Shown here piece after piece: positions 14,025 through 31,352 of a stretch of 34,222 nucleotides of DNA. The position numbers and the translations under genes are program-made. Each line of letters starts with the position of its first letter. Position 1 is the first letter of the stretch. Below the pieces are notes generated by a model. It worked only from the letters and a program-made list of their open reading frames with translations. It did no database searches and was not told the DNA's origin. The stretch is from Acidobacteriaceae bacterium (GTDB taxonomy: Bacteria > Acidobacteriota > Terriglobia > Terriglobales > Acidobacteriaceae): NCBI GenBank assembly GCA_003168355.1, contig PMSQ01000150.1, positions 25,205 through 59,426 on the forward strand. Direction: 5' to 3'.

Positions 14025-17000
14025 TCAGAACTCGAACCGCAAGCCGAATTGAAAATACCTGGGCAGATAGCCATTCGCATCCGAGCTGATTGTGCCAAAC
14101 GTACTATCCCCAAGACCGGTGTCCGGCGCTGCGAAGCGCGGATGATTGGCGAGGTTGAATATCTCAGCTCGCACTTCCACCTTCATGCCTTCTTTCGGTA
14201 CAAAAGACTTGTAAAGATTCAGGTCCACGTTGTGGATGCCGTTGACCCGCAAGCCGGAAAAGTAGCGTGGAGCATTGCCTGGGTTCTGATCACCTGGGTC
14301 CGCAAAGCAGCTCGCATTAAAGAAGGCGGCAACGGGGGAAAGGCCGGCGCTTTCGGCTGCCGAGTTCTGTTGCGAATTCAATGCAACGTCCTTCATGCTC
14401 ATACCACTCTTAAGCTGGGGACAAACGACACTGGGACGCTGGCTGCCATTCGCCAGCCGCCCGAACGTATCCGAGATCGCCATGGGTTGACCGGACTGTT
14501 CCGTGATCAAGGTGGCGATCGACCAGCCGCCAACGACGGCGTCGAGTGCGCGGTTCATATTGCCATCAATCCATTGATCGCGGCCTACCGGCATGTCTAC
14601 GACCACGGCGGCCGCGAGCCGCTGCGGCGTGTCATTAGCGCTGATGCTGTGCTCCAAGTTCAGACGGTCGAGCTGTTGCGGCATGCCGGCGCTCAGCGAG
14701 CCAACAAAGTTGTTCCTGCCTGCCGAGGAATCGTCGGTCGACTTCGACACGGTATAGTTGCCCTCGAAGCTGACGTGGTGCGTCGTGCGCTTCTGGAAGC
14801 GGATCTGCATCGCGTTGTACCAGGAATTCGCCTCCTCCAGCATCAGGCCTTCGAAGTCTCCGGTAAATTGAGGGTACGGATTGAGCAGATACCCCAATGG
14901 AATCTGCTGAGTGGTGTAGAGCGCATCGGGCTGGTTGAAGCATGGGGCGGACGGCGCCGGAGTGCAAGGGGTACTGAACATGGGGAAGAACGGATTATTC
15001 ACGAGCGTCTGCAGAAAATTGCTCACGCAACTATCTGCCGAGCAAGTCGGATCGGTGGGGGTCACAGCGGCGGAAATCTGCGCCAGCAATGTCGACGGCA
15101 TGAAGTCCCGGTTGTTCGTCCCGGACCAGGGCAGATGGGTGGCCCGGTTGGCAACGTAGTCCACGCCGATGACGATCTGGCTAGGCAATTCGCGCTGGAT
15201 TCCCAGGTTCCACTGGTAAATGTCGGCGTCCCGCGCCGCACTCGTGCCCAGGTCGTTATTGTTAGCGTATCCCCAATTCGCCAGTGCACCATACTCTGTG
15301 CCCTGCGGACCGCTAAATCCGTTGGGGAACGGATTTTCCAGAGTCGCGTTTTGGCTCGCAAAATTGTTCTGCGTAAAGAACATCGTGGCGGTTTCGCGGA
15401 ACGCGGTTCCCGGATATTGGAAATTTGTGGCCGGGCTCATTCCAAAATAAATTCCCACCCCGCCGCGCACGACCGTTTTCGAATCGATCCCGTAGGCAAA
15501 ACCCAGCCTCGGTCCAAAGTCTTTGCGGTACGCTGGAACGCTTCTCATGCTGGAAGTAGGGAACTCCGTCGTGCCGTACAGTTCCTCCGAGGACGGTAGA
15601 TTCAATCCAATTCCTTGCATCGCCGCCTGCGCACTCGTCGCACCCCCACTGGCGAGGTTGATGCCGACGCCAGTGTCAGCCGTGAAATTGCTGAACTCAA
15701 TCCGGTTGTACCGCTCGTTGTACGGCGTGCTCCATTCATACCGCAGGCCGAGGTTCAGTGTGAGCTTCGAGTTCACTTTCCAATCGTCCTGGACATAAAA
15801 CCCGGTCTCGGCCGACTTGTTCGCCACCGAGGGATACACGATGAGCGAAGTCGGTTCCGAAGAAAAAGGATTGATATTGTCGGCGTAGCCGAAAAGAAGG
15901 CTGGCAAATGGGTTGCCCGTAAGATTGTTGTTAGAATCGGTCTCGCTGTTCGGACTCGGCGACGTAGTGTAATCCGAAAAGTTGAGGGCTCCGGTGGGAT
16001 CCGGCGGCTGGAAGAAGTTGTTGTAGAAAAGTCTCTGCTCGCCGCCGATCTTGATCAAGTGCGAACCTTTGGAAACGACCAACTGAGACGAATAACTATA
16101 CAGAGTGTGCGCGAAGGTCGTGTTCACACAGCACTGGTCGAAAAGATCGGCAGTGGTCGATGCATCCGACGCGAGGGCAGCTCCCGTCATGTAGAACGCC
16201 GGCATTCGGTCCAACCCATTGGCCTGCTCGAACACTGCCGGCAATGGTGGAAGCCCGTTTGCCTGCTGCGCGGCGTTGAAGCTGGAAATCGTGGGAATAT
16301 TCGTCGTTTCCGCTTCGTGCACCCGGTCCACCGCAAAACGGTTGGTCCAGACAATGCGCGGATTGAGAGTCCAGGTGTATTCGAGCGAGCCGTTTTGCGC
16401 CCTCGTGGGACTGCCTGCGATTCCGTCTCCGGTTCCGTTGTTATCGAAGCCGTCTCCCAGAATATATGGAGTGTAATAATTGGATGTCTCTCGGCTGTAG
16501 CGGCCGCTAATGCGCTGCTTGTCGTTAATCTGATGATCCAATTTGATGTCGAACTGATAATCCGGTGCGTGTGCTACGCCGCTGAATAGGTAGTTGTTAA
16601 ATTCTCCCGGCAGGTTGGGTTGCGGATAGAGATTGAGAATAGCCCGCCCAATGGGGTCGACCTCGCTTGCAGGTATGACGTTCAACGGCCCGTTGTTCTT
16701 AACGCCGACCTGCGACCTCGACACGCACGGACTCCCACAGGTCGTTGGGTCGTAAATGTTTGTCGCCGTCGCTGAGAAATCGGGGTTTTGCGCTCGCTCC
16801 GCCAAGGTCGGCACAGTCGCAACATTGTTGAACCCATTGTTGGCGCGAACTTTTTCAAAATCGACAAAAAAGAAAGTTCGGTTCTTCCGGATCGGCCCGC
16901 CGATTGAAAAGCCTCCCTGGTCGCGCTTGCTATCTGGTTTGGGACTGGGTTCAGGGTTAAAGAAATCGCGAGCGTCCATCTGCGGGCGCTGTAGGAAATA

Positions 17001-17792
17001 CCAACCGCTGCCGTGGAAGGCATTGGTTCCGCTCTTCAGAACCATGTTCACGACCGTGCCGCCGTTGTTGCCAAACTCTGCTGAAAAACTGTTGTTCTCA
17101 ACCTTAAATTCCTGCACGCTTTCTACCAGCGGCTCGTAGTAGACGTTGGAGTTTCCGCCCTCGCCCTGTTCCGGCGCGCTGATCAATGCGCCATCGATCC
17201 TTATCTCGGCCGTCGCATTGCGCTGTCCGTTGGAAACGAAATTCGTCCCAGAGGGATAATTATCCTGCGTGCCCGAACCAGCCGCCTCAGTCACACCTCC
17301 GGCCAGGAAGGTCAAACCGAAGAAATCGCGGTTGATTAAAGGGATCTCCTTCACGTACTCGCTGGTAATGTCGGTACCCAATGTCGCACTCTCCGTGTCC
17401 AACAGCGGAGCGGCTGTCGTGACTTCGACCTTCTCACTCGCACCCGCGGGAGTCACAGTAAAATTGAGCGTACCTTCCTGATCGACGGCAAGTACCACAC
17501 CCGTTCGCTCTGCCGCTCGAAAACCAGGAATCTGAACTTTTACCGAATATGTGGATGGCCGCAAACCGGTGAAGTAGTATTCGCCCTTGTCGTCAGTGCG
17601 GGCGACACTGGAAATATTGGTTCCTGTGTCCGTAATAGTTACGGTCGCACCGTGAACCACCGCTCCCGTTGCATCAGAGACCACGCCACGAAGCTGTGCC
17701 CGGTAACTGCCCTGTGCGACCGCCGACGTCGCAACGCCTGCGAAGAAGTACGCCGCAAGAATGCAAGAGAGAACTCGTCCAGTCGGTCTCAT
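14025..17792 (-). CDS. Oar-like TonB-dependent outer-membrane receptor
   Basis: A 1,255-residue receptor from the ATG at 17792, which has GGAGG 6 nt upstream and begins a standard signal peptide (RPTGRVLSCILAAYFFAG...AVAQ). After it comes a carboxypeptidase-regulatory-like domain (about residues 30-110: LRGVVSDATGAVVHGATVTITDT, GEYYFTGLRPSTYSV), a plug domain (INRDFFGLTFLAGGV, VSNGQRNATAEIRIDG, FSAEFGNNGGTVVNMVLKSGTN) and a long beta-barrel ending FQFGLRFEF, with the terminal aromatic used for outer-membrane assembly. An ATG at 17909, also with GGAGG, would add 39 residues in frame. The gene is the last of a four-gene operon, 26 bases (from 17909) after the sugar kinase, so uptake of an oligosaccharide or glycoside is the likely role. 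The ligand is unknown. Confidence 0.9.
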   Translation of the reverse strand: MRPTGRVLSCILAAYFFAGVATSAVAQGSYRAQLRGVVSDATGAVVHGATVTITDTGTNISSVARTDDKGEYYFTGLRPSTYSVKVQIPGFRAAERTGVVLAVDQEGTLNFTVTPAGASEKVEVTTAAPLLDTESATLGTDITSEYVKEIPLINRDFFGLTFLAGGVTEAAGSGTQDNYPSGTNFVSNGQRNATAEIRIDGALISAPEQGEGGNSNVYYEPLVESVQEFKVENNSFSAEFGNNGGTVVNMVLKSGTNAFHGSGWYFLQRPQMDARDFFNPEPSPKPDSKRDQGGFSIGGPIRKNRTFFFVDFEKVRANNGFNNVATVPTLAERAQNPDFSATATNIYDPTTCGSPCVSRSQVGVKNNGPLNVIPASEVDPIGRAILNLYPQPNLPGEFNNYLFSGVAHAPDYQFDIKLDHQINDKQRISGRYSRETSNYYTPYILGDGFDNNGTGDGIAGSPTRAQNGSLEYTWTLNPRIVWTNRFAVDRVHEAETTNIPTISSFNAAQQANGLPPLPAVFEQANGLDRMPAFYMTGAALASDASTTADLFDQCCVNTTFAHTLYSYSSQLVVSKGSHLIKIGGEQRLFYNNFFQPPDPTGALNFSDYTTSPSPNSETDSNNNLTGNPFASLLFGYADNINPFSSEPTSLIVYPSVANKSAETGFYVQDDWKVNSKLTLNLGLRYEWSTPYNERYNRIEFSNFTADTGVGINLASGGATSAQAAMQGIGLNLPSSEELYGTTEFPTSSMRSVPAYRKDFGPRLGFAYGIDSKTVVRGGVGIYFGMSPATNFQYPGTAFRETATMFFTQNNFASQNATLENPFPNGFSGPQGTEYGALANWGYANNNDLGTSAARDADIYQWNLGIQRELPSQIVIGVDYVANRATHLPWSGTNNRDFMPSTLLAQISAAVTPTDPTCSADSCVSNFLQTLVNNPFFPMFSTPCTPAPSAPCFNQPDALYTTQQIPLGYLLNPYPQFTGDFEGLMLEEANSWYNAMQIRFQKRTTHHVSFEGNYTVSKSTDDSSAGRNNFVGSLSAGMPQQLDRLNLEHSISANDTPQRLAAAVVVDMPVGRDQWIDGNMNRALDAVVGGWSIATLITEQSGQPMAISDTFGRLANGSQRPSVVCPQLKSGMSMKDVALNSQQNSAAESAGLSPVAAFFNASCFADPGDQNPGNAPRYFSGLRVNGIHNVDLNLYKSFVPKEGMKVEVRAEIFNLANHPRFAAPDTGLGDSTFGTISSDANGYLPRYFQFGLRFEF

Positions 17793-17935
17793 GAGGATCC
17801 TCCGTCTCCTTCGCATGTAGCTGACGTTTTCTCGGGCGCGCACGCCGGTCCGCCGGTTGTTGAGAAATCCACCGAAATGGAAATCGTCGGAACCTGCCGT
17901 TTTGGTCATGAAAACCTCCACTTGCCCGTCCTGCC

Positions 17936-18898
17936 CTACTCATTCATAAAAAAAGTTTCTCTGCCCATCAAAGCCCATTGCCGGCGCATGAAGCCAAGCA
18001 ATTCCGTACGATCTCGAAATGCCTCCGTACCTCCTTCTTTCGTTACCGAGTACGCGGCCGCGATGTTGGCGAAGGCCAGGCAGTCTTCCAGTGACCTCCC
18101 CCGCAAAAACGAGTAAATAAATCCCGCATCGAAAGTATCGCCGGCACCGACGTCATCGGCGATGTTCACGCTCGGGGGCGCCAGACTCCAATGCTCATCT
18201 CCCGCGCGGCAAATGGCGGATCCCGAGCCGCGTTTCATCACGACTACTTTGACAAGCTCGGCCAGCCGATCAATCGCCTGTGAAGGATCCGTTGTCCGTG
18301 TTATTTTTTTTGCTTCTCGCTCGTTTGGAAGGAACACATCGACATATTTCAGGACTGCCTCCAGATCTTTCCCCCATAGATCTTCCGGATCATCGTTCGT
18401 ATCAAGAGACGTGGTGAGACCTGCTTCCTTCGCCTGCCGGAACAAATCTGGAATTCGGGGCCGCAACGCACGGTGCAAAAAGAAGGAGCCGAGGTGGAGA
18501 TGACGGGCCCCACGAACGTAGTCCATGTCGATGTCTGAATACTGCATTTCGAACATCGTGCCCGGATACGTCAACATATGGCGATCCTGGGCATGAGGCA
18601 GCACAACCGTGAGCCCGGTGTATGTCTTGCTGACTCCTTGCTTAACGTGGCTGGTGTCAACACCCGCGGCGGACAACCGTTCTACCGCGATTTTTCCGAG
18701 GGGGTCACCACCAATTTTCGATATAAGACCGACTTGCGTGCCGAGCACGCACAAGTTGTGCGCGAAGATCGCCGAGGAACTTCCCAACGTGAATGCAAGT
18801 CCGCTGGCCAGCAACTCTCTGTCGAGCGGCAGATCCCTGGGCAACCCGTATAGAATCAGATCCAGGTTGAGCTCCCCGACAACACAGACCTCGATCAC
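17936..18898 (-). CDS. PfkB-family carbohydrate kinase
   Basis: A 320-residue ribokinase-type kinase. The N-terminal VVGELNLDLIL and the C-terminal signature DDVGAGDTFDAGF (anion-hole GAGD, catalytic Asp254) are intact, as are FLPNEREAKKIT and VVVMKRGSGSAI. Family members phosphorylate sugars or sugar phosphates with ATP: fructokinase, 2-keto-3-deoxygluconate kinase, tagatose-6-phosphate kinase and others. Next to an AgaS-type gene, phosphorylation of tagatose-6-phosphate or of the free incoming sugar are the two reasonable roles; sequence alone does not separate them. The start is GTG at 18898, with AAAGGAG 7 nt upstream. It lies 42 bases downstream of the SIS gene in the operon. Confidence 0.88.
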   Translation of the reverse strand: MIEVCVVGELNLDLILYGLPRDLPLDRELLASGLAFTLGSSSAIFAHNLCVLGTQVGLISKIGGDPLGKIAVERLSAAGVDTSHVKQGVSKTYTGLTVVLPHAQDRHMLTYPGTMFEMQYSDIDMDYVRGARHLHLGSFFLHRALRPRIPDLFRQAKEAGLTTSLDTNDDPEDLWGKDLEAVLKYVDVFLPNEREAKKITRTTDPSQAIDRLAELVKVVVMKRGSGSAICRAGDEHWSLAPPSVNIADDVGAGDTFDAGFIYSFLRGRSLEDCLAFANIAAAYSVTKEGGTEAFRDRTELLGFMRRQWALMGRETFFMNE

Positions 18899-18940
18899 TG
18901 AGTGCTCCTTTCGCGTTCTAAAGTGCGACCGTACACTCGG

Positions 18941-20134
18941 TCAATGGTGAATCTTGACATGCTGTACCACTCGGCTGATGGCGCCATTTGGACTTGGACA
19001 GTCGGGCCGCAGATTCCACCGCAGCGAAAAAAACAAACCCAGCAGTTGCCCAAACATCACGTCCACCACCACGCGATAGTCATCGCCTATATCGCCTGGC
19101 GCAATCGGCGTCAGATAGTATTCGGCGAAAGAGTCTTTGTCCGAGATTTCGCCCCCGGCCACAACTATCCTGGACCTGACCAGCCGCTTTTCCCCGATCT
19201 CCTCCAGCAAATCCCGCTCGTACTGCTGTGTGCGCCAATTGCCCGAAAGAAAGCAAACGAACAGCGTGTCTTGATCCAAAGCCGCCATGGGACCATGGCG
19301 AAGGCCCAACCCCGACTCGGACAGAGTCAAGGTCTTTCCCGCAGTCAGCTCGAGCAGCTTGAGAGCAGACTCCCGCGCCACTGCCTTCAGGGGTCCTGAA
19401 CCGACAAAGCAAGCTTTCGTGTACGCTTCTTTCGCTAACGCCGACGCGCAATTTGCGGCGGTCGGCAGAAAATTTCTGCCCGCCTGCACCAGTTGCAACA
19501 GAATTTCCTCATACCTGTCGAGATCGTTAACGTGCGCCAGACACTGGCCGAAGATCACCATGCTGGAGAATGAGCTGGTCATGGCCAATCCGCGGTCATT
19601 CACGTCGTCATCTAAGCAAATACCTAATACACGCCTTACCTCTGCGCTTTCGCGGATCATTCGACCGTTGGCATTGCACGAGATCACGAGGTGATGAATG
19701 TCCGGACGACACTCCCGAGCAGCCTCCAATGCCGCAACTCCCTCGGGCGTGTCTCCCGAACGCGAAAACCAAATCCAGAGATATCTCCTCCCAGCAATCA
19801 TCAAGTCATCCATGTGCGTCAGCAGATCCGTACTCGCCACCGCGATCACGTCGCAGTGCCAGCACTTGCCTAGAACATAAACTAGAGATTGCCCAATATA
19901 GTCAGACGTCCCGGCGCCGATCAGGAAAACGGTTGGCCTGGAATCCGGACTTGCTCCGACTCCCGCGAGCGACAGGAATTCCTTGATCCGGGCCTGCCTT
20001 CTCCGGAATAGTTCGAAGGTAGACAGCCAGGCATCGGGCTGCTGCGCGATTTCCGCAGGGGTATAGGCCAGCCCGCGAGCGGTTTTCTCGCTGTTCGGAA
20101 GATTTAATAATTCAGCAAGAGCATTCACCCGCAA
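18941..20134 (-). CDS. agaS: AgaS-type SIS-domain sugar-phosphate isomerase/deaminase
   Basis: A ~395-residue protein with two SIS domains and motifs characteristic of AgaS: YTPAEIAQQPDAW, LIGAGTSDYIG (residues 71-81), STDLL, FSRSGDTPEGVAAL, LVISCNANG, NDRGLAMTSSFSSM, VGSGPLKAVARESALKLLELTAG, LGLRHGPMAALDQDTLFV and the terminal PSPNGAISRVVQHV. Characterised AgaS proteins convert galactosamine-6-phosphate to tagatose-6-phosphate plus ammonia, or isomerise related ketose/aldose phosphates, in the cytoplasm. The start is uncertain: TTG at 20134 sits only 3 nt from GGAGG, while the in-frame GTG at 20128 has 9-nt spacing and fits better. It lies 55 bases after the glycosidase-like gene. Confidence 0.87.
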   Translation of the reverse strand: MRVNALAELLNLPNSEKTARGLAYTPAEIAQQPDAWLSTFELFRRRQARIKEFLSLAGVGASPDSRPTVFLIGAGTSDYIGQSLVYVLGKCWHCDVIAVASTDLLTHMDDLMIAGRRYLWIWFSRSGDTPEGVAALEAARECRPDIHHLVISCNANGRMIRESAEVRRVLGICLDDDVNDRGLAMTSSFSSMVIFGQCLAHVNDLDRYEEILLQLVQAGRNFLPTAANCASALAKEAYTKACFVGSGPLKAVARESALKLLELTAGKTLTLSESGLGLRHGPMAALDQDTLFVCFLSGNWRTQQYERDLLEEIGEKRLVRSRIVVAGGEISDKDSFAEYYLTPIAPGDIGDDYRVVVDVMFGQLLGLFFSLRWNLRPDCPSPNGAISRVVQHVKIHH

Positions 20135-20189
20135 AATCCTCCATTCAATACTTTCGCTGCTGCGTTACTTCGGGGCTGGCATTCCGCCG

Positions 20190-22163
20190 TCACGGCTCAT
20201 ACCAAAATACCGCGCCCTTTTCGATCGCAGGAAGCTTGTACGTGACACCGCCGTCACCAGGAGTGCCATTCAGTAGCTGCACCTCTCCGAGAAAGGGAAG
20301 AAAGTATCCATGCCCGATGGTTGTACCTGACACCGTGACTTGGACACCGCTCTGTGGCGTTTGAATCGGATTCACCCCACCCTTCAGCCCGGCAAAGTTC
20401 GAAAAAAATACGTGGGGCTTTCCGTCGACCTGGGAGATTGACGTGGCGACCATAGGGGAAGCAACCACGCGAACCGGCGCGTCGAATTTCAGGTTCTCGA
20501 TAAATTCGTGCTCTCGCTCAGGGTTTACTTCGTCGACATCCTTTTGCAGTGCCGCGTAATAATCCTTTCCCGGGCATTTACTGAACCGGAGCACGTTGGA
20601 TGGAGAACCAAGCTGAGTAGCATCTTCTCCTGTGATGACCAGCGTCTTATTGCCATCCACGTATTTACGAAACCACGCCCTTTCGCTCTCGCTGATCACC
20701 CGCACGTCAGGCAGAATCAAAGTGTGCCCCTGAAACACCGAAAGCGTGCGCGGGGTGACAACCTGAAATTCACGGTGCTGCTGCATGAGAAGGATGAGAA
20801 TTCCGCGGTAGGATGGGATGAATTCGTCTGCGTTGTAATTTCGAGTGCTGGGAGAGAAGTAAACACCGATGGGGGCGATAGTTGTCCGCGGCCGGTAGAA
20901 CGTGTCTTCATGCCCCTTAATCCAGGAAAAAATCCGCGTTCGGGTCGCCGAATCGTTCGATCCCGCCATCGAATGTCCTGGCGCATCCCAAAAATTTGAT
21001 CCCGTCATGATTTCTGAGACTACCAGATTCATCATGGCCTCCCGCCGATCCACCTTCTTGTCCCCATCCCACGAGTAGTTCAGTATCCAAGTTGCCTTAC
21101 CCTGCGCGAAGGCGCGAAACGAGTGCATTCCCACTTGGTAATTGAACCAATCCAGCGCGGTTCTGGACGAAGCCATGTGATCACCGCTGCCGAATTCATA
21201 TTCATGGGCAATGGCATCGACCACCGCGTACAAACTGTAAACATCAGCCCCAACGCGCACGGCCTCTTCCTCAATGCCTGGGTAAATCTCGGAAATCGTC
21301 TTGATTGAGGGATTCACAGCCTTTGCGTTCTGGTCAATGTCTTGCATGAAATCGGTGATCGTTTGAATTCTGAAATCGACCCATTTTCTAAAATTGCGGT
21401 CGGAGAAGTCTCCCAGCTTGACGTCCTTCTTCGCATCAAGGCCCGTTTCTTTTCGGAAGGCCGCAACCGTCGAGTCGTCGAAACTCGCCCAAGTGTCTTC
21501 CCAACCATCGAAGTGCGTCATCCAGTACGGAATGTCGACGTAGATTCCATCGATTCCCGTGGCCGCAATCTGCCTTACACGCTCCATGTAAGTTTTCCGC
21601 CATGCCGGCGCGTAGGGGCTAACCCACACATCCTCATCCCCTTTCGCAATCCAGAAAGCGGTGCCGCCTCCAAAGACCGCGGGTTCTCCGCTGATCTTCC
21701 GCTGAAGCCAGTCCGGATGATCTTTGGCGAGCGTGTGTGGAGTTTTGTCGGCGTTGGCCGTAATGCACTCAGTTCCGGCGATGTAGACAAATGCGCGGTT
21801 GCCCGCTGCGTGCGCCCTTTCCGCCACCTCACGGATTGCCTTCAGCTTTTCCTCCGGGTTGAGAAAGCTCTCGTAGCGGCCCGGTATATCGTTGTCGACC
21901 TCGATGCCAAACACGCCGTCTTCCTGCGCACTTCGGACGATCCGGTCTGCATTATCGCTCTGTAGCCCATACGCGCCGATGCGCACGTAATGGGTCCAGT
22001 TCTGCTCCGCCGTATCGGGGCTCGCCTGCAGGAATGGGGATAACACCACCAAGGCAATCGTCGTGGAAGCAGCCAAGGCCCGGGTAATGCCTGACGCTCG
22101 CCAACGCCCGAGACCAGCGTTATGGAACAGAACAGACCCAAGACGGATTGGGTTTCGTATCAT
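20190..22163 (-). CDS. secreted TIM-barrel glycosidase-like protein, family unresolved
   Basis: A 657-residue protein and the first gene of the operon. A hydrophobic signal segment (ALAASTTIALVVLSPFLQAS, residues 29-48) follows a long ~28-residue n-region. The catalytic-type barrel starts at about residue 58; ATGIDGIYVDIPYW (Asp210) has the GxDGxxxD strand-end pattern of glycoside hydrolases, and TISEIYPGIEEE (Glu292) offers a second acid. Then come ILNYSWDGDKKVDRREAMMN and GSNFWDAPGHSM. From about residue 430 there is a Rossmann/GATase-like region (IGVYFSPSTRNY, LILPDVRVISESERAWFRKYVDG, LVITGED), as in the trimerisation domain of GH42 enzymes, and a small beta domain at the end. I cannot assign a CAZy family. 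The ATG at 22163 has no clear ribosome-binding site and overlaps a predicted operator. Confidence 0.75.
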   Translation of the reverse strand: MIRNPIRLGSVLFHNAGLGRWRASGITRALAASTTIALVVLSPFLQASPDTAEQNWTHYVRIGAYGLQSDNADRIVRSAQEDGVFGIEVDNDIPGRYESFLNPEEKLKAIREVAERAHAAGNRAFVYIAGTECITANADKTPHTLAKDHPDWLQRKISGEPAVFGGGTAFWIAKGDEDVWVSPYAPAWRKTYMERVRQIAATGIDGIYVDIPYWMTHFDGWEDTWASFDDSTVAAFRKETGLDAKKDVKLGDFSDRNFRKWVDFRIQTITDFMQDIDQNAKAVNPSIKTISEIYPGIEEEAVRVGADVYSLYAVVDAIAHEYEFGSGDHMASSRTALDWFNYQVGMHSFRAFAQGKATWILNYSWDGDKKVDRREAMMNLVVSEIMTGSNFWDAPGHSMAGSNDSATRTRIFSWIKGHEDTFYRPRTTIAPIGVYFSPSTRNYNADEFIPSYRGILILLMQQHREFQVVTPRTLSVFQGHTLILPDVRVISESERAWFRKYVDGNKTLVITGEDATQLGSPSNVLRFSKCPGKDYYAALQKDVDEVNPEREHEFIENLKFDAPVRVVASPMVATSISQVDGKPHVFFSNFAGLKGGVNPIQTPQSGVQVTVSGTTIGHGYFLPFLGEVQLLNGTPGDGGVTYKLPAIEKGAVFWYEP

Positions 22164-22188
22164 TGCGTTTAATAACTTTTACTTTCGT
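22162..22188. promoter_or_regulatory. predicted DeoR/AgaR-type operator, copy 1
   Basis: ATTGCG-N10-TTTACTTTCGT on the plus strand, in the 173-base divergent spacer between the glycosidase operon and the DeoR-type gene. A copy with the same two blocks and the same 10-base gap occurs on the minus strand at 24350-24376, upstream of the amidohydrolase. TTTCGT-rich repeats are typical of AgaR/DeoR sites. An extra TTTCGTA at 22153-22159 sits 30 bases from the TTTCGTA inside this site. The site touches the glycosidase start codon. Confidence 0.6.
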
Positions 22189-22336
22189 ACCGCCTCGGGT
22201 GTCAAGCGTAAAATGTTGCCTTCTGAACCAGCGGAAGCTGGCATGGACAAATCAGCCCGGCCACTGTAAAAGAGAATGTCGCGAGAACGTGCGAATGAGC
22301 GCGTCAATTTGAAAGCGAGTCCTGCTGAGTGGAGCA

Positions 22337-23098
22337 ATGCTGAACGAAGAACGGCGTCGACACATCCTGGACATTCTGAGTCGCGACGGCCGCGTTTTGG
22401 TCGTCGACCTGGCAAAACGATTCCGAACGTCCCAGGTCACTATCCGAAAGGACTTGGATGCTTTGCAGGCCCATGGCCGCATTCACCGCAGCCACGGCGG
22501 GGCCCTACCCGCGCGCGAGAGTGCACTGGAAGACCCGACTCTACGGGAGAAGGAGAAGCTGCATCGCAAGGAAAAACTGAAGATTGCGGTTGCCGCCGCC
22601 CATATGGTGCAGGAGGGTCAAGTGGTGATTCTGGATTCCGGGACCACTACTACAGCGATCGCACGGGCGCTGCGTAAGTTTGAGAACCTCACCGTCATCA
22701 CCAACGCTGTAAATGTCGCCGCCGAACTCTCCGGTTCCTCGCTCGATCTCATCCTAACCGGCGGGACTCTGAGGAAGAACTCATTCTCGCTCGTGGGCCC
22801 GATTGCGGAAGAGACGCTGCGGCGACTGAACGGAGATATTCTTTTTCTCGGCGTGGACGGCTTCGACGTGCAACATGGTTTGACCACACCGAATCTGCTC
22901 GAGGCCAAAGTCAATCGGGCAATGATGGATGTGGCCCGGGTTGTGGTGGCGGTGTGCGACTCCAGCAAGTTCGGGCGCCGCACCTTATCTTCGATCGCAC
23001 CCCCCTCGGGGGTGCACCATTTGATTACGGACCGGGGTATTTCGAAACCGGATCTCGCCGCATTAAAGAAGGCTGGAATCCAGGTAACCCTGGTCTAA
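22337..23098 (+). CDS. DeoR/GlpR-family (AgaR-like) transcriptional repressor
   Basis: A 253-residue regulator. The N-terminal DeoR winged helix (NEERRRHILDILSRDGRVLVVDLAKRF, then SQVTIRKDLDALQAHGRIHRSHGGAL) is complete. The C-terminal effector domain of the ISOCOT/sugar-phosphate isomerase-like fold has ILDSGTTTTAIARAL, VITNAVNVAAEL, LILTGGTLRKNSFSLVGP and FLGVDGFDVQHGLTTPNLLEAKVNR, close to AgaR. Such repressors release DNA on binding a phosphorylated sugar. It is divergent from the glycosidase-AgaS-PfkB-receptor operon and convergent (15-base gap) with the amidohydrolase. It likely controls both through the shared motif, and perhaps itself. A GGAG lies only 2 nt from the ATG, so initiation may be weak. 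Confidence 0.9.
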   Translation: MLNEERRRHILDILSRDGRVLVVDLAKRFRTSQVTIRKDLDALQAHGRIHRSHGGALPARESALEDPTLREKEKLHRKEKLKIAVAAAHMVQEGQVVILDSGTTTTAIARALRKFENLTVITNAVNVAAELSGSSLDLILTGGTLRKNSFSLVGPIAEETLRRLNGDILFLGVDGFDVQHGLTTPNLLEAKVNRAMMDVARVVVAVCDSSKFGRRTLSSIAPPSGVHHLITDRGISKPDLAALKKAGIQVTLV

Positions 23099-23113
23099 TT
23101 CTGGCTGAGCAGT

Positions 23114-24301
23114 CTATTTCCCTCGCGCCAGTGCTTCACCACGGAATTGCCCAAATATTCTCTCTGCGTTCTTGTGATAGATCTTTTCCAATACTGAATC
23201 CGGAAGCTCCATTCCGTAAATCTCCCAGCGACCTTGTCCCGGGTATCCCCAATAATCGAAGGATTCATCTCCGGTTTCCAGCCACCGGAAATGATTGCGA
23301 TACATGGCTTCGTCCATGCCGTTATCGGTGCCAAACATGATCCGGTCCTGATACTTGATAAAGAATTCGCGGGCGCGACGAGGCTGGCGGCCCAGTTCGG
23401 CTTCCCGTGCTCCGAACTCGACCATCACATTGGGAAGAGTGTCGAGCAGATGGGAGACATAGTCGAGATTCTCCGGCCAATTCGCCATATGCAGCGCGAC
23501 GAACGTCGTGTGCGGATGCTTGGCGAACATGCGGTCGCGTGCCGCCAGGAGCGATTCCTTCGTGGGGAACTCAGGTCCGTAAAAACTCCAATCCGGATGC
23601 TCGGTCAATTCTTCATATCGCTCATTGGTGTTGTCGACAGGACGAAAGAACGCTTCTGGATCGGTCGAATGAATAGAGACTGGAATACCCAGTCGCCCGC
23701 ATTCCTCCCAGATGGGATCGAGGCGCGGGTCATCGATCGCAATCAGCTTCCCCGATTTGTCGCGCACGCCTAAGCCAAGGTCCTTTAATTGCTTCAGACC
23801 ACGCGCCCCTCGCGCCACGGTATCGTCGAGCTGAGCCACCATCTCCTGGCTGTAGTTGGGATCATCGATCTTGCTGAAGTCAATCTGGCTGAAGACTATA
23901 AAGCGTCCGGGATACGGCTTGACCATCTCGTCGATCACCTGCTGCAGTTTGTCGCCCCACATGCCGGTGAGAATCACTACTGTCTTGACGTTGGTGTTGT
24001 CCATGATCTCCACCACGCGCCGGGGTGCCATGTGGTCGTCGATTCGCATGGCATCGTTCACGTGGTTATGAACATCAATCACGTAGTACTTGGCGCGGTC
24101 CACGTTGTGGGCCGGTGCATGCAGCATCGAAACCGGATGGAAGTCCTTCAGCAGCAGGGTTTTCTTCTCATCCGCTCCGGCGGCGGATTTGTAGCCGATT
24201 TGCCCCTGCGATTGGTCTGGTTGCGGCGCTGCACTCTGCCCGGCAGGCCGCGCCAGAGCGGCTAGAAAAAAGCAATAGGACACAATTAGTTTGATCGACA
24301 T
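23114..24301 (-). CDS. secreted Amidohydro_2-family metal-dependent hydrolase
   Basis: A 395-residue protein with a signal peptide (KLIVSYCFFLAALARPAGQSAA). The TIM-barrel amidohydrolase begins at YVIDVHNHVND (His78 and His80, the HxH metal ligands). It continues with VKTVVILTGMWGD, ARGLKQLKDLGLGV, IPVSIHSTDP (His), TTFVALHMANWPENL (His) and RIMFGTDNGMD (Asp), so the ligand set of PF04909 is intact. Family members include sugar lactonases, decarboxylases and hydratases; the reaction here cannot be fixed. A periplasmic or surface location and the shared operator with the glycosidase operon suggest it acts on the same glycoside or its aglycone. The start has GAGG at about 9 nt. Confidence 0.82.
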   Translation of the reverse strand: MSIKLIVSYCFFLAALARPAGQSAAPQPDQSQGQIGYKSAAGADEKKTLLLKDFHPVSMLHAPAHNVDRAKYYVIDVHNHVNDAMRIDDHMAPRRVVEIMDNTNVKTVVILTGMWGDKLQQVIDEMVKPYPGRFIVFSQIDFSKIDDPNYSQEMVAQLDDTVARGARGLKQLKDLGLGVRDKSGKLIAIDDPRLDPIWEECGRLGIPVSIHSTDPEAFFRPVDNTNERYEELTEHPDWSFYGPEFPTKESLLAARDRMFAKHPHTTFVALHMANWPENLDYVSHLLDTLPNVMVEFGAREAELGRQPRRAREFFIKYQDRIMFGTDNGMDEAMYRNHFRWLETGDESFDYWGYPGQGRWEIYGMELPDSVLEKIYHKNAERIFGQFRGEALARGK

Positions 24302-24349
24302 GGCCCGGCCTCATGATTTACCGCAAATTCTCTTAACAATCTCAACAAA

Positions 24350-24376
24350 ACGAAAGTAAATGGAATCGTTCGCAAT
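24350..24376. promoter_or_regulatory. predicted DeoR/AgaR-type operator, copy 2
   Basis: Read on the minus strand this is ATTGCG-N10-TTTACTTTCGT, ending 49 bases upstream of the amidohydrolase start. Both blocks and the 10-base gap match the site at 22162-22188 exactly, with 20 of 27 positions identical in all. Confidence 0.6.
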
Positions 24377-24582
24377 ATACTTCACAGTTCTAGCTTTCGG
24401 CAAGCGGCTCCTGAAAGAGAGTCAAAAGCACGGCATGAGAATCCGATCGAAATGCACCGACGATACCCTGCGGTCATGACGCGCCTGCAGGCACTCGCGC
24501 TCGGCCTTGCCCTGCTTGGATCGGCGTTCGGTTGGAAGCCTGAACAGAATGACGCAGGCCGGCAGTCCGCCCCGGCTTCTGA

Positions 24583-24961
24583 CCATTCCTCCACCAATCC
24601 ACAGATCCGACTCTATCTCCGGACGGAACCATCATCGCGCTGCACGAGGAAGGCGGAGGAATCTCTTTGTATCGCACGGGCAGCGGCGCGGCCGACTGCA
24701 GCGATGGGAGCGCTCGCCGCTGAGTCTCCGATCCGGTTCGTCAATGGCGGCCGGTCATTATTGGTCGGCGACAGCAGCAGCAAAGACGTCATCCTCACCG
24801 TGGTCGATCTGGCAAGCGGGCAGCGCCAGGCGTGGAAACGCTTGTATTTCAGCGTTCAACGCAAAGGAAAATCAGTCGTGGTCACGCCCGATCTGAAGTA
24901 TTACGCATATTATTCCCCCCGGTATTCTTCCGATCTGTATCTGGTGGAGAATCTCCGCTGA
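24583..24961 (+). pseudogene. decayed C-terminal piece of a TolB/PD40 beta-propeller protein
   Basis: Two reading frames carry successive parts of one protein. Frame A (from about 24583) reads LSPDGTIIALHEEGGGISLYRTGSGA, a PD40 propeller blade, and stops at about 24723. Frame B then reads PIRFVNGGRSLLVGDSSSKDV...VVDLASGQ, followed by VVVTPDLKYYAYYSPRYSSDLYLVENLR, which is the typical last blade and C-terminus of acidobacterial winged-helix/propeller regulators. The change of frame around 24700-24725 and the lack of any upstream domain indicate a frameshifted remnant. A continuous 169-residue frame from 24452 exists, but its N-terminal half does not look like protein of this family. Confidence 0.6.
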
Positions 24962-28039: not shown

Positions 28040-28166
28040 CTTCGAGTGTGATGATGATTTGACCCCGAAGGAAAGCGGCAGGAAATTCGATTTGTCCACT
28101 CAGTCAGATTGAACGAACTGCTATTGAGTGAAGAGAACCGGACTTCGGACCGGAGAGGATTCTAAC

Positions 28167-30029
28167 TTGAAAATCACGACAGCTTTATTGCGTAAGCCCG
28201 TAGGGGCTTCGGCCTTCCTTTCGGTGCTTGTTTTGAGTCTCGGCGTTGGCCAAGGTGTGTGCTGTTACGCACAGACTCAGACCCAACCGAACGATCAGCC
28301 GAGAGTGGCTGCCCTGCACGAACCGGTGCCTGGTGATACGAGTACGACGAATAGCACGGCAATTGTGAACGCCCAGCCCGCCGCCGCGCCCGATCCGGAA
28401 ATATCTCCGGCGGTCGCGAAACAGTTCGCGGCCATGCAGGCGGAGATCGAGCAACTGCAAGCAGAACTGAAAGGCCGTGGCGCGACTGAACCAGCGTCGC
28501 TGTCCATCGGAGGATCGTCGACATCTGCCGCAGCCGCGGCTCCGGCCCCAGCCACAACCAGCGCGGCTCCGGCTGTATCGGCTGCACAAGCGCCAAGCGA
28601 CGCCGCAGCCGCTAAGCCTGAAAAAAAACCGCCGACCGAGCCTTTTGCCTTTGCCGACTGGAGCTGGATGAACGGCAGTCCTCACAACAAGGAGGCGGTG
28701 TGGGATTCGAAGTTCTTCACCCCGGAAATCAGATTGGACACTGACTACGTCAGTAGCTTCAACCATCCGAAGGATGACACGCTAGGCGGATCAACCGAGA
28801 TCTTTCGCTCGAATGAAGTCCAAGTAGAGCAGATCAGCTTCGGTGGTGACTTCCACTGGCAAAACGTTCGCGGCCGGATATTGACTCTGGGGGGGATGTT
28901 TGCAGTAACGACGCCAAGGAATGACGGCAGCGTGGGACGCGGCCAATGGGACCTTCGTGGCGCGTACAAGTACTTTGGCGAAGCCTACGGCGGTTACCAC
29001 GTCAACGTGAATCACGGGCTCAACGTTGACGCAGGAATCTTCGTTTCCTACATCGGCCTCTTCAGCTACTGGAACTTCGATAACTGGGCGTATCAGCCCT
29101 CGTACGTATCGTCCAACACACCCTGGTTCTTCAATGGTTTGCGCATCCAATGGTTCCCTACCGAAAAATTGAAGATTGAGCCCTGGATCATCAATGGATG
29201 GCAATCCTATGCCAGGTACGGCAACGTGCCCGGTCTGGGCGGACAGATTCTATACCGTCCGAATGCGAATCTTTCGTTCGTCTTCAATAACTACGGCATG
29301 GGCGAAGATACGCTGGGTCTTAACGGCGCCCGCTCACGTTTACACACTGACAACAGCGTCGAGTACAAGTACTACGACCACCCCGAGAAGACTCTGGACA
29401 AGATGGCTTTCTCAATCACCGGCGATCTGGGATGTGAATACGGTGGAGGAGTGAGTTGTCTCGGGGACAAGAAGACAGCGGGCCAAATCACAGCCTACAA
29501 GCAGGTCTTCGCGGGGTGGATGATCTACGACCGCACGTGGTTCAAAAAGGACAAGTACGCAGTAACTCTTGGCGGCGGTGTGCTGGACAATCCGGGCCGC
29601 TATCTGACGCTGCTGCAACCGATCAATGGAGCGGACGCGGTTTCCGGATCGCCATATTTTCCGGTGTTTCCCGGGTCGGTGTATAAGGCCTGGGACAATT
29701 CCGCCAGCTTTTATTACATGCCAAAACAGTACATCAGTTTCGTCTGGGAGTTCGGTTATCGCCACGCGAATCAGCCATATTTTACGGGGCGAGGTGGAAT
29801 AACGCCTCCGAACGGCAACAACGGTTCTCCCGCCGATTATGTCTGCAATGACGGAAGTTCGACCGGGTTTGGGTGGGCGGTAAATCCCTCCAACCCCATC
29901 GACCCGAACGGAGCCAACCTCGGCCTCGCGCAATCGACCTGCAACGCGAATTCGCATGGCGGACTTTGGACCCCGGATCTGCGCAAGGATGAACCCAGTA
30001 TTCGGATGGCCATCATGGTGAAGTTCTAG
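28167..30029 (+). CDS. outer-membrane beta-barrel protein (BBP2/OmpL-like porin)
   Basis: About 620 residues. The TTG at 28167 with GGAGAGG 8 nt upstream begins a good signal peptide (ITTALLRKPVGASAFLSVLVLSLGVG...CCYAQ); an in-frame GTG at 28128 would add 13 residues. After the signal comes a short predicted coiled coil (VAKQFAAMQAEIEQLQAEL), an Ala/Pro-rich linker, then a barrel rich in aromatic alternating strands (FGGDFHWQNV, GAYKYFGEAYGGYHVNVNHG, LRIQWFPTEKLKIEPWIINGW, SFVFNNYGMGEDTLG) and a terminal RMAIMVKF. This fits the putative beta-barrel porin 2 family. It directly precedes an RND adaptor and pump, in the position where a TolC-type channel is normally found, so it may be part of that unit. 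It is not TolC-like in sequence. Confidence 0.75.
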   Translation: MKITTALLRKPVGASAFLSVLVLSLGVGQGVCCYAQTQTQPNDQPRVAALHEPVPGDTSTTNSTAIVNAQPAAAPDPEISPAVAKQFAAMQAEIEQLQAELKGRGATEPASLSIGGSSTSAAAAAPAPATTSAAPAVSAAQAPSDAAAAKPEKKPPTEPFAFADWSWMNGSPHNKEAVWDSKFFTPEIRLDTDYVSSFNHPKDDTLGGSTEIFRSNEVQVEQISFGGDFHWQNVRGRILTLGGMFAVTTPRNDGSVGRGQWDLRGAYKYFGEAYGGYHVNVNHGLNVDAGIFVSYIGLFSYWNFDNWAYQPSYVSSNTPWFFNGLRIQWFPTEKLKIEPWIINGWQSYARYGNVPGLGGQILYRPNANLSFVFNNYGMGEDTLGLNGARSRLHTDNSVEYKYYDHPEKTLDKMAFSITGDLGCEYGGGVSCLGDKKTAGQITAYKQVFAGWMIYDRTWFKKDKYAVTLGGGVLDNPGRYLTLLQPINGADAVSGSPYFPVFPGSVYKAWDNSASFYYMPKQYISFVWEFGYRHANQPYFTGRGGITPPNGNNGSPADYVCNDGSSTGFGWAVNPSNPIDPNGANLGLAQSTCNANSHGGLWTPDLRKDEPSIRMAIMVKF

Positions 30030-30060
30030 CTTGGCGAGCACCGGGGGCAGAGACGACAAA

Positions 30061-31239
30061 ATGCGCGACATGAACCGGAGCACCGTTCGACAGCTGACTG
30101 CACCTGTTGGGCTGCTCCGTTTTTTCTTTGCCCTCTCTTTGCCGGCCGTGCTGGCCCTGACGGGCTGTAGCGCACATGCAGACCCGGCGGCTGAGGCACC
30201 TCCGCCGGCGAACATCGTACCTGGAACAGATCCCGGCCTGTTCGCGGTGGACCATCCTGAACAATTTCCGCTCGCAGCGGCCGTTGAGCACTCCACGACC
30301 TCCGAGTTGGTGGTCACGGGCGCGGTTACGCCCGACATCGCGCGCAATATTCCAGTGGTCTCGCTCGCATCGGGCCGCGTGGTGGCCATTCGCGCGCGAC
30401 TCGGCGACACAGTGCAAAAAGGCCAGCTGTTACTCACGATTCGCAGTGACGACGTTGCGGGAGGGTTCGACGCCTATCGCAAAGCCGTCTCCGACGAACT
30501 TCTCGCGCGGAAGCAGCTAAATCGAGCCGCGGACCTGTATGCCCACGGCGCCATCGCGCAGCAAGACCTCGAGGTCGCGCAAGACACCGCAGATGATGCC
30601 AAGGTCACACTCGATACCGCGACCGAGCATCTTCGGCTCCTGGGCAACGATCCCGACAAGCCCATGGGCATCGTGGACATCGTTGCGCCCACCACGGGCG
30701 TGATTACCGATCAGGAAGTGACGAACGCGGCGACCGTGCAGGCCTACTCATCGCCCAGCCCGTTTACGATTTCGGATATCTCGTCTGTTTGGATTGTCTG
30801 CGATGTGTACGAGAATGACCTGGCTACGGTCCGGCTGGGGGACATCGCGGAGATCACCCTGAACGCGTATCCCGACCGACCGTTCAAGGGGAAGGTCAGC
30901 AACATTAGCACCATCCTCGATCCGAGTATTCGCACCGCCAAGGTGCGCATCGAAGTGCAGAACCCCGGAATCATGAGGCTTGGCATGTTCGTGAGAGCCA
31001 CGTTCCATGGCCAGACCAGAGAGATGCACACCATTGTTCCGTCCTCTGCGGTACTGCACATGCACGATCGCGATTTTGTTTTCGTTCCCGCGCCCGACAA
31101 GAAATTTCTCCGCGTAGAGGTGGTCGGTGGAGACGTGCTCACCGAGAACACGAAATTGCAGGAAATCAAGTCAGGCCTGAAGCCAGGGCAACCGGTGGTC
31201 ACGAACGCGCTGGTTTTGGATCACGTGCTCGCGCAATAA
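30061..31239 (+). CDS. RND efflux periplasmic adaptor lipoprotein (CzcB/CusB-like)
   Basis: About 392 residues. The lipobox LALTGC (Cys36) ends a hydrophobic segment, so it is a membrane-anchored lipoprotein. The barrel-sandwich (lipoyl-like) half motifs are VVSLASGRVVAIRARLGDTVQKGQLLLTI and VDIVAPTTGVITDQEV. Between them is a helical hairpin (YRKAVSDELLARKQLNRAADLYAHGAIAQQDLEVAQDTADDA), then a beta-barrel (VWIVCDVYENDLATVRLGDIAEI, FKGKVSNISTILDPSIRTAKVRIEV) and a membrane-proximal domain. No His- or Met-rich metal-binding tail is seen. I place the start at the ATG at 30061; a TTG at 30031 is in frame. It is 31 bases after the outer-membrane gene and 113 bases before the pump gene. Confidence 0.9.
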   Translation: MRDMNRSTVRQLTAPVGLLRFFFALSLPAVLALTGCSAHADPAAEAPPPANIVPGTDPGLFAVDHPEQFPLAAAVEHSTTSELVVTGAVTPDIARNIPVVSLASGRVVAIRARLGDTVQKGQLLLTIRSDDVAGGFDAYRKAVSDELLARKQLNRAADLYAHGAIAQQDLEVAQDTADDAKVTLDTATEHLRLLGNDPDKPMGIVDIVAPTTGVITDQEVTNAATVQAYSSPSPFTISDISSVWIVCDVYENDLATVRLGDIAEITLNAYPDRPFKGKVSNISTILDPSIRTAKVRIEVQNPGIMRLGMFVRATFHGQTREMHTIVPSSAVLHMHDRDFVFVPAPDKKFLRVEVVGGDVLTENTKLQEIKSGLKPGQPVVTNALVLDHVLAQ

Positions 31240-31352
31240 CGGAAGGTGCAAACCGACACAGCCTCGCGGGCGCGGCTCATGCCAGACATTCCAGATCAGC
31301 AGCCGTGCAGAGCGGCTGAGTCGGCGCATCTGCAAGCCAGACAGGACAGGGA

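Follow-up and report, generated by a model that had tools for sequence, protein, structure and literature searches.

Which sugar, and from what source, does a six-gene locus handle that places a secreted-looking glycosidase, a TonB-dependent receptor and an AgaR-type repressor beside enzymes of tagatose-6-phosphate-type metabolism? We address this question for a stretch of 34,222 nucleotides from an Acidobacteriaceae bacterium (assembly GCA_003168355.1, contig PMSQ01000150.1), hereafter the window. A first-pass annotation had described four closely spaced minus-strand genes, a divergent AgaR-like repressor and a secreted amidohydrolase nearby, and all three elements stand: the open reading frame (ORF) coordinates return the gaps of 55, 42 and 26 bases, the repressor scores 271 bits against the cut-off of 260 of the AgaR equivalog model NF040755, and the amidohydrolase (PF04909) is secreted-looking, with a signal-like N-terminus. 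The locus is real and conserved, and couples a pathway that is already known to a front end that is probably new. At a probability of roughly 0.6, we read it as a regulated system for the use of galactosamine or N-acetylgalactosamine (GalNAc) that works without a phosphotransferase system (PTS) and would be fed by an alpha-linked, galactosamine-containing polymer.

The first line of evidence is recurrence, since the gene-order search that had been proposed for other Acidobacteriota found the order conserved beyond this strain. One locus (L119) matches the window in gene order across all six genes, with identities of 92% for the amidohydrolase, 93% for AgaR, 84% for the 657-residue glycosidase, 79% for both AgaS and the PfkB kinase and 70% for the receptor, and two others (L118, L122) hold all six rearranged. 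More broadly, AgaS, PfkB, AgaR and the amidohydrolase are found again at most 10 kb away from glycosidase relatives, on independent contigs. As AgaS is rare (28 of 297 phylum genomes above 140 bits, the window's own genome included in this background set), the grouping is more than chance. The glycosidase itself reaches E<=1e-5 in 14 of the 297, with one close relative (G221, 64%). A genome-collection scan with the glycosidase alignment gave 178 relatives, and the surroundings of the best 80 (below, the glycosidase loci) were searched with the window proteins by tblastn: the receptor was found in 66, on the same strand and within 3 kb of the glycosidase gene in 59 of these, the amidohydrolase in 21, PfkB and AgaR in 18 each and AgaS in 17. 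Eight of the 17 AgaS matches are only 25-28% identical and form a separate SIS cluster, nearest to GlmD (155 bits, cut-off 580). We also compared 16 AgaS loci without the glycosidase, drawn from the 28 genomes and mostly their best matches (20 kb each, one shorter), where the receptor query gave only matches of 26-30%, in six. After the receptor, the commonest neighbour of the glycosidase is a protein of about 525 residues with a start resembling a twin-arginine signal and no Pfam match (L134:5072-6631 and 28 further loci).

What the SIS protein does is suggested by its family and, above all, by what accompanies it. It matches the SIS domain at 42.5 bits and, as its best model, the AgaS subfamily TIGR02815 at 270 bits; the curated cut-off being 529, it is a divergent AgaS member. 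Identification as GlmS or GlmD was rejected (52 and 43 bits), and we read the protein as a putative galactosamine-6-phosphate deaminase/isomerase. Three ways of disposing of tagatose-6-phosphate are found around its relatives. Among the glycosidase loci, six pair a second kinase with a LacD-type aldolase and seven have KbaZ; among the 16 AgaS loci without the glycosidase, seven have GatZ/KbaZ and two have GatY together with a second kinase and an SSF carrier. These 16 loci also contain the window's type of PfkB (13), AgaR (7) and amidohydrolase (7). Across these 96 loci, KbaZ (14) and a LacC/1-phosphofructokinase (1-PFK)-type kinase (10) never share a locus, and eight of the ten kinase loci also carry LacD or GatY; L067 and L069 show weaker second-kinase matches with no aldolase seen, and L066 combines KbaZ with a weak LacD match (35%). 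Additionally, 14 of the 17 genomes with KbaZ carry AgaS, as against 28 of 297 overall, a comparison that, like all our co-occurrence P values, ignores kinship. That tagatose-6-phosphate is the product of the SIS step is best supported by these three exchangeable exits. In nine otherwise similar loci (L158, L167, L169, L172, L173, L174, L175, L194, L196) a GlmD/NagB-II-like SIS protein stands in place of AgaS, and several of these also gain LacD and a second kinase.

The same comparison bears on the kinase. The second kinase of the relatives scores 264 against the 1-PFK "hexose kinase" model, above the cut-off of 216, and 120 against the LacC model, below the cut-off of 410, so that its LacC function is presumptive; the window's PfkB shares about 27% identity with it over part of the length. 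It could be argued that the window's PfkB is itself the tagatose-6-phosphate kinase and that an unlinked enzyme phosphorylates the hexosamine, the rest of the route being unchanged, given that it is the operon's only kinase and that no LacC/1-PFK-type kinase in the genome passes its cut-off. We nevertheless regard this as unlikely, because the same PfkB type also occurs in loci that already hold a LacC/1-PFK-type kinase with LacD or GatY, as well as in KbaZ loci. As GatZ and KbaZ interconvert fructose-6-phosphate and tagatose-6-phosphate (PMC11907403), the latter would need no tagatose-6-phosphate kinase if KbaZ is a C4 epimerase. Being common to three locus layouts, the window's PfkB is most simply a hexosamine kinase, and is best read, by elimination, as a candidate galactosamine/GalNAc kinase. 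Comparison of loci thus both assigns the kinase provisionally and reveals three interchangeable ends of one pathway.

A second alternative concerns the sugar. Were it neutral galactose, released from a galactan or galactoside, AgaS would isomerise galactose-6-phosphate to tagatose-6-phosphate without deamination. The proteins of known structure with which AgaS aligns over nearly its full length (PDB 3odp, 3c3j and 3i0z) were indeed named putative tagatose-6-phosphate ketose/aldose isomerases by their depositors, Melibiase-like enzymes are common near the cluster (21 of the 80 loci match Mel713_L056) and the overall fold of the glycosidase is GH42-like. On the other hand, galactose accords poorly with the AgaR equivalog, with GH109 in three of the 16 AgaS loci, with Spherulin4 beside the glycosidase in five of the 80 loci, with the GlmD/NagB-II-like deaminase relative that takes the place of AgaS in some loci and with the genetics of Escherichia coli, where agaS is required for growth on GalNAc and galactosamine (PMC3668189); we hold it to be quite improbable. 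A fructosamine (Amadori product) pathway of the frl/fra type, with a PfkB kinase and an SIS deglycase, would suit the pairing of the two families and the kinase's 90 bits against the fructoselysine 6-kinase model (cut-off 247), and was rejected as very improbable on family scores and tagatose-type neighbours, given that the SIS protein has no listed fructoselysine-6-phosphate deglycase match at E<=0.001 yet scores 270 bits to AgaS, and that the tagatose-specific exits of the relatives would be left purposeless.

Where, then, are the remaining steps of a galactosamine route? The absence of a NagA/AgaA deacetylase, an AgaY/GatY aldolase, a PTS and a permease had been pointed out from the start, and our scans agree: the six genes include no PTS, no GalNAc-6-phosphate deacetylase (Pfam, NCBIfam) and no tagatose-bisphosphate aldolase, and the window genes scanned include no permease or other inner-membrane carrier. 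Sugar carriers do occur in six of the 16 AgaS loci without the glycosidase, four of them of the major facilitator type. The window is part of contig C47 in an assembly of 5.3 Mb that is 92% complete, and elsewhere in this genome lie a NagA (C177; 338 bits, cut-off 226) and a LacD-type aldolase (C135; 475 bits to PRK12858, "tagatose 1,6-diphosphate aldolase", cut-off 184) that is 53% identical to the linked LacD of the relatives; GatZ/KbaZ (PF08013) and class II aldolase (PF01116) were not found in it. An SIS gene on C135, considered as a second deaminase, was rejected as GlmS-like. The further claim that the locus is apart from known aga systems found no support, considering the unlinked NagA and LacD-type aldolase, the non-PTS aga pathway of Shewanella, which has an outer-membrane receptor, a permease and a kinase of its own (PMC12118421), and the finding that nagA substitutes for agaA in E. 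coli (PMC3668189).

Regulation appears to tie the amidohydrolase to the operon. The window contains two exact copies of the motif TTTACTTTCGT, one 14 bases ahead of the first ATG of the operon and the other 48 bases ahead of that of the amidohydrolase, and with up to one mismatch the motif has 3 matches against 0.3 expected. In 21 sources, picked from 81 for AgaR, an SIS gene or the amidohydrolase without taking all such loci, 20 sites with at most one mismatch lie upstream of pathway genes, compared with a mean of 1.1 and a maximum of 10 for 150 shuffled motifs, and six lie upstream of other genes over a similar length; the motif was derived from the window, to which two of the 20 sites belong, and the upstream regions counted for pathway genes may overlap with those counted for other genes. 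As this 11-mer is common to both transcription units and kept in relatives, the amidohydrolase probably belongs to the operon's regulon, with AgaR as the presumptive binder. The 16 AgaS loci without the glycosidase (about 315 kb) contain four one-mismatch matches (L055, L056, L057, L060) and no exact one, so that the motif seems limited to glycosidase-linked loci.

The amidohydrolase follows AgaS through the phylum, being present (E<=1e-20) in 24 of the 28 AgaS genomes compared with 71 of 297 overall; in 11 of the 28 the two genes lie no more than 10 kb apart. Across 18 sequences its HxH, H211 and H271 never vary and D326 hardly does. The predicted structure has a predicted local distance difference test (pLDDT) score of 79, with decarboxylases, hydratases, lactone hydrolases and uncharacterised proteins as fold relatives. 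The enzyme is not of the NagA family, with PF04909 as its only Pfam match and no NCBIfam match at E<=0.001. Forms without a signal-like N-terminus accompany AgaS plus KbaZ or GatY in five loci (L057, L058, L061, L064, L065), and the family therefore seems active in two compartments. A de-N-acetylase role is attractive but unproven. All five AgaS genomes without a NagA match (E<=1e-20) have the amidohydrolase and all four without the amidohydrolase have NagA, a complementarity that we rejected as evidence for such a role, its chance being about 0.43 given 24 carriers among 28. Divergent from the amidohydrolase, L119 has an intact Melibiase-like gene of which the window keeps only the start: the remnant is 61% identical over residues 1-102, another alignment reaches residue 212 (24320-24931, 45%), and DNA similarity with L119 stops at 24608. 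A 169-residue ORF at 24452-24961, with no Pfam match, overlaps the remnant.

The novelty probably lies at the front end. The earlier remark that the glycosidase matches no nameable family is borne out: it fits no well-studied family, and Pfam returns GHL10 at 27.9 bits, exactly at the cut-off, and otherwise only GHL13 and GHL6. Structure prediction, also proposed at the time, gave an AlphaFold2 model (61 sequences, pLDDT 86.6) that reads as three domains: TIM barrel, alpha/beta and beta sandwich. Alpha-agarase, an alpha-L-fucosidase, GH42-type beta-galactosidases, GH164 beta-mannosidase, beta-1,2-glucosyltransferase and GH66 dextranase make up the 50 Foldseek matches listed, all at 8-13% identity, and most PDB profile matches lie in the second domain of GH42-type enzymes. 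Two acids, Asp210 where strand 4 ends and Glu292 on strand 5, do not vary in alignments of 61 and of 10 sequences, which have in common the window protein and one further gene. GH42 enzymes carry their catalytic Glu residues on strands 4 and 7, a layout that strand reading of the model and the invariant columns do not show here, no acid being seen on strand 7. We take an Asp on strand 4 with a Glu on strand 5 to be the arrangement found in retaining alpha-glycosidases (GH13 and GH66, for example) and not in GH42, and this invariant layout suggests an alpha-acting glycosidase of an unassigned family. In G221, a single open frame (L070:9004-12870) joins a Melibiase-like domain to the enzyme and may encode a single protein.

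As for the polymer, a Spherulin4 gene (PF12138; 98 bits, cut-off 30) adjoins the glycosidase in the five loci mentioned above (L134, L151, L154, L156 and, as a 129-residue piece, L127), two of which (L151, L154) also carry KbaZ and PfkB while the other three do not. PF12138 was detected at E<=1e-8 in none of the 297 background genomes, the window's own included; in a positive control on eight genomes with the glycosidase, four had one copy each, beside it, and four had none. A PDB search with the Spherulin4 neighbour gave no match at E<=0.01. We take PF12138 to be the CAZy family GH135. Galactosaminogalactan or Pel is the substrate of GH135 enzymes, as of those of GH114, GH166 and GH191; both are adhesive, of fungal and bacterial origin, and few families of enzymes able to cut them have been characterised (PMC12054363). 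It is mainly because these GH135-type genes adjoin the glycosidase that an alpha-linked galactosamine polymer is proposed, with fungal galactosaminogalactan or a Pel-like polymer as the leading guess. An outside hint that Acidobacteriota use galactosaminogalactan comes from a Verticillium, which, when making this polymer, raised their share in soil relative to a synthesis-cluster mutant (PMC13245733).

In sum, we infer all activities, the polymer and the binding of AgaR from gene families, conserved clustering, the shared motif, the unlinked LacD-type aldolase and NagA, and the alternative exits. The secreted glycosidase would cut a galactosamine-containing polymer, the receptor would import the pieces and an inner-membrane carrier would bring the sugar into the cytoplasm, where PfkB would form the hexosamine-6-phosphate. 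From an acetylated sugar, the acetyl group would be removed by the unlinked NagA, or possibly by the amidohydrolase; AgaS would then give tagatose-6-phosphate and ammonia, a further kinase and the unlinked LacD-type aldolase would complete the route, and AgaR would repress both transcription units. The original proposal of outer-membrane capture, extracytoplasmic cleavage and tagatose-6-phosphate entry under AgaR-type control is thereby supported at the level of sequence, with an order conserved in relatives.

Several observations weigh against this reading. AgaS scores far under its curated cut-off, and the genome's LacD-type aldolase, at 376, falls short of the 432 that the LacD equivalog model demands. 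Among the genome's kinases even the best match to the 1-PFK model, on C206, reaches just 85 bits and fails the cut-off, and the motif is absent in front of the genome's own LacD and NagA. The window has neither a GH135 gene nor an intact Melibiase-like gene, and three of the 16 AgaS loci (L054, L059, L060) are without PfkB, AgaR, amidohydrolase and KbaZ. Finally, an SIS or aldolase gene is nearby in only 24 of the 80 glycosidase loci; in the other 56, many on short contigs, none is within reach, so that the link of glycosidase and receptor to the tagatose pathway does not hold everywhere.

The coordinates of the locus are collected below; signal peptides were judged by eye, and gene calls in the scripts were mechanical, leaving some ORFs overlong. 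The nearest named relatives of the window are Terriglobales and other Acidobacteriota metagenome-assembled genomes. At 28128-34220, consecutive genes for a BBP2-type porin, an HlyD-type fusion protein and an AcrB-type pump form a resistance-nodulation-division efflux operon unrelated to the locus.

Table 1. Features of the locus, in window coordinates.
Feature	Position	Strand	Remarks
GHL10-like glycosidase, 657 residues	20190-22163	-	secreted-looking; first gene of operon; family unassigned; Pfam GHL10 27.9 bits
AgaS-subfamily SIS enzyme	18941-20134	-	gap of 55 to glycosidase gene; TIGR02815 270 bits
PfkB-family kinase	17936-18898	-	gap of 42 to AgaS gene; Pfam PfkB 150 bits
TonB-dependent receptor, Oar-like	14025-17909, from its ATG	-	last gene of operon; gap of 26; OMP_b-brl_4 617 bits and CarboxypepD_reg
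AgaR, DeoR-family repressor	22337-23098	+	divergent from operon; NF040755 271 bits
Amidohydro_2 metal-dependent hydrolase	23114-24301	-	PF04909 91 bits; signal-peptide-like N-terminus by eye
Operator-like 11-mer	22178-22188	+	between operon and agaR; 14 bases upstream of operon's first ATG
Second operator-like 11-mer	24350-24360	-	upstream of amidohydrolase gene
Melibiase-like glycosidase gene remnant	24317-24610	+	about the first 102 codons; divergent; relatives keep the gene

GalNAc use has already been deduced for peatland Acidobacteria (PMC6018796), and we found no account of this locus in the mostly open-access literature on AgaS/tagatose or galactosaminogalactan in Acidobacteria, on TonB-dependent use of galactosaminogalactan or on N-acetylgalactosaminidase in Sulfotelmatobacter. 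If our reading is true, the glycosidase family, of which genome collections contain at least 178 relatives, could be a source of enzymes that cut galactosaminogalactan or Pel, and one carbon source of Acidobacteriota in peat and soil can be put to the test. A bolder version would have the glycosidase, with its Asp210/Glu292 pair, found a new family of retaining alpha-galactosaminidases, the PF04909 hydrolase represent a new class of extracytoplasmic galactosamine de-N-acetylase and, with the receptor, soil Acidobacteriota be dedicated consumers of galactosaminogalactan or Pel; taken jointly, these propositions are doubtful.

Among known systems, the aga cluster of Shewanella, which comprises Omp-Aga, AgaP, AgaK, a deacetylase, AgaS, AgaZ, AgaY and AgaR, shares with the locus an outer-membrane receptor, a non-PTS kinase (here a candidate one), an AgaS-type enzyme (here divergent) and AgaR-type regulation (PMC12118421). 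Here, by contrast, the kinase is of the PfkB family, the operon includes a glycosidase gene, neither deacetylase nor aldolase is linked, no permease is seen and the aldolase is LacD-type instead of AgaY. The aga/gam PTS clusters of E. coli and Streptococcus likewise combine AgaS and AgaR with the tagatose-6-phosphate route that is proposed here (PMC3668189, PMC4694137), whereas the six-gene locus has a TonB receptor in place of PTS genes. The glycosidase resembles the endo-alpha-1,4-galactosaminidases of GH114, GH135, GH166 and GH191 in being a TIM-barrel enzyme, with GH135-type genes adjoining its relatives, but shows sequence membership in none of the four: Pfam lists only its GHL matches, phmmer finds no PDB sequence at E<=1 and none of these families is named among the 50 Foldseek matches listed. 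With GH42/GH164-type glycosidases it shares the three-domain layout (Foldseek template modelling scores of about 0.55-0.6) and the profile matches to the second domain, and it differs from them in its low identity and, as regards GH42, in the placing of its invariant acids. What is new here is thus probably the glycosidase family and the polymer, and not the pathway.

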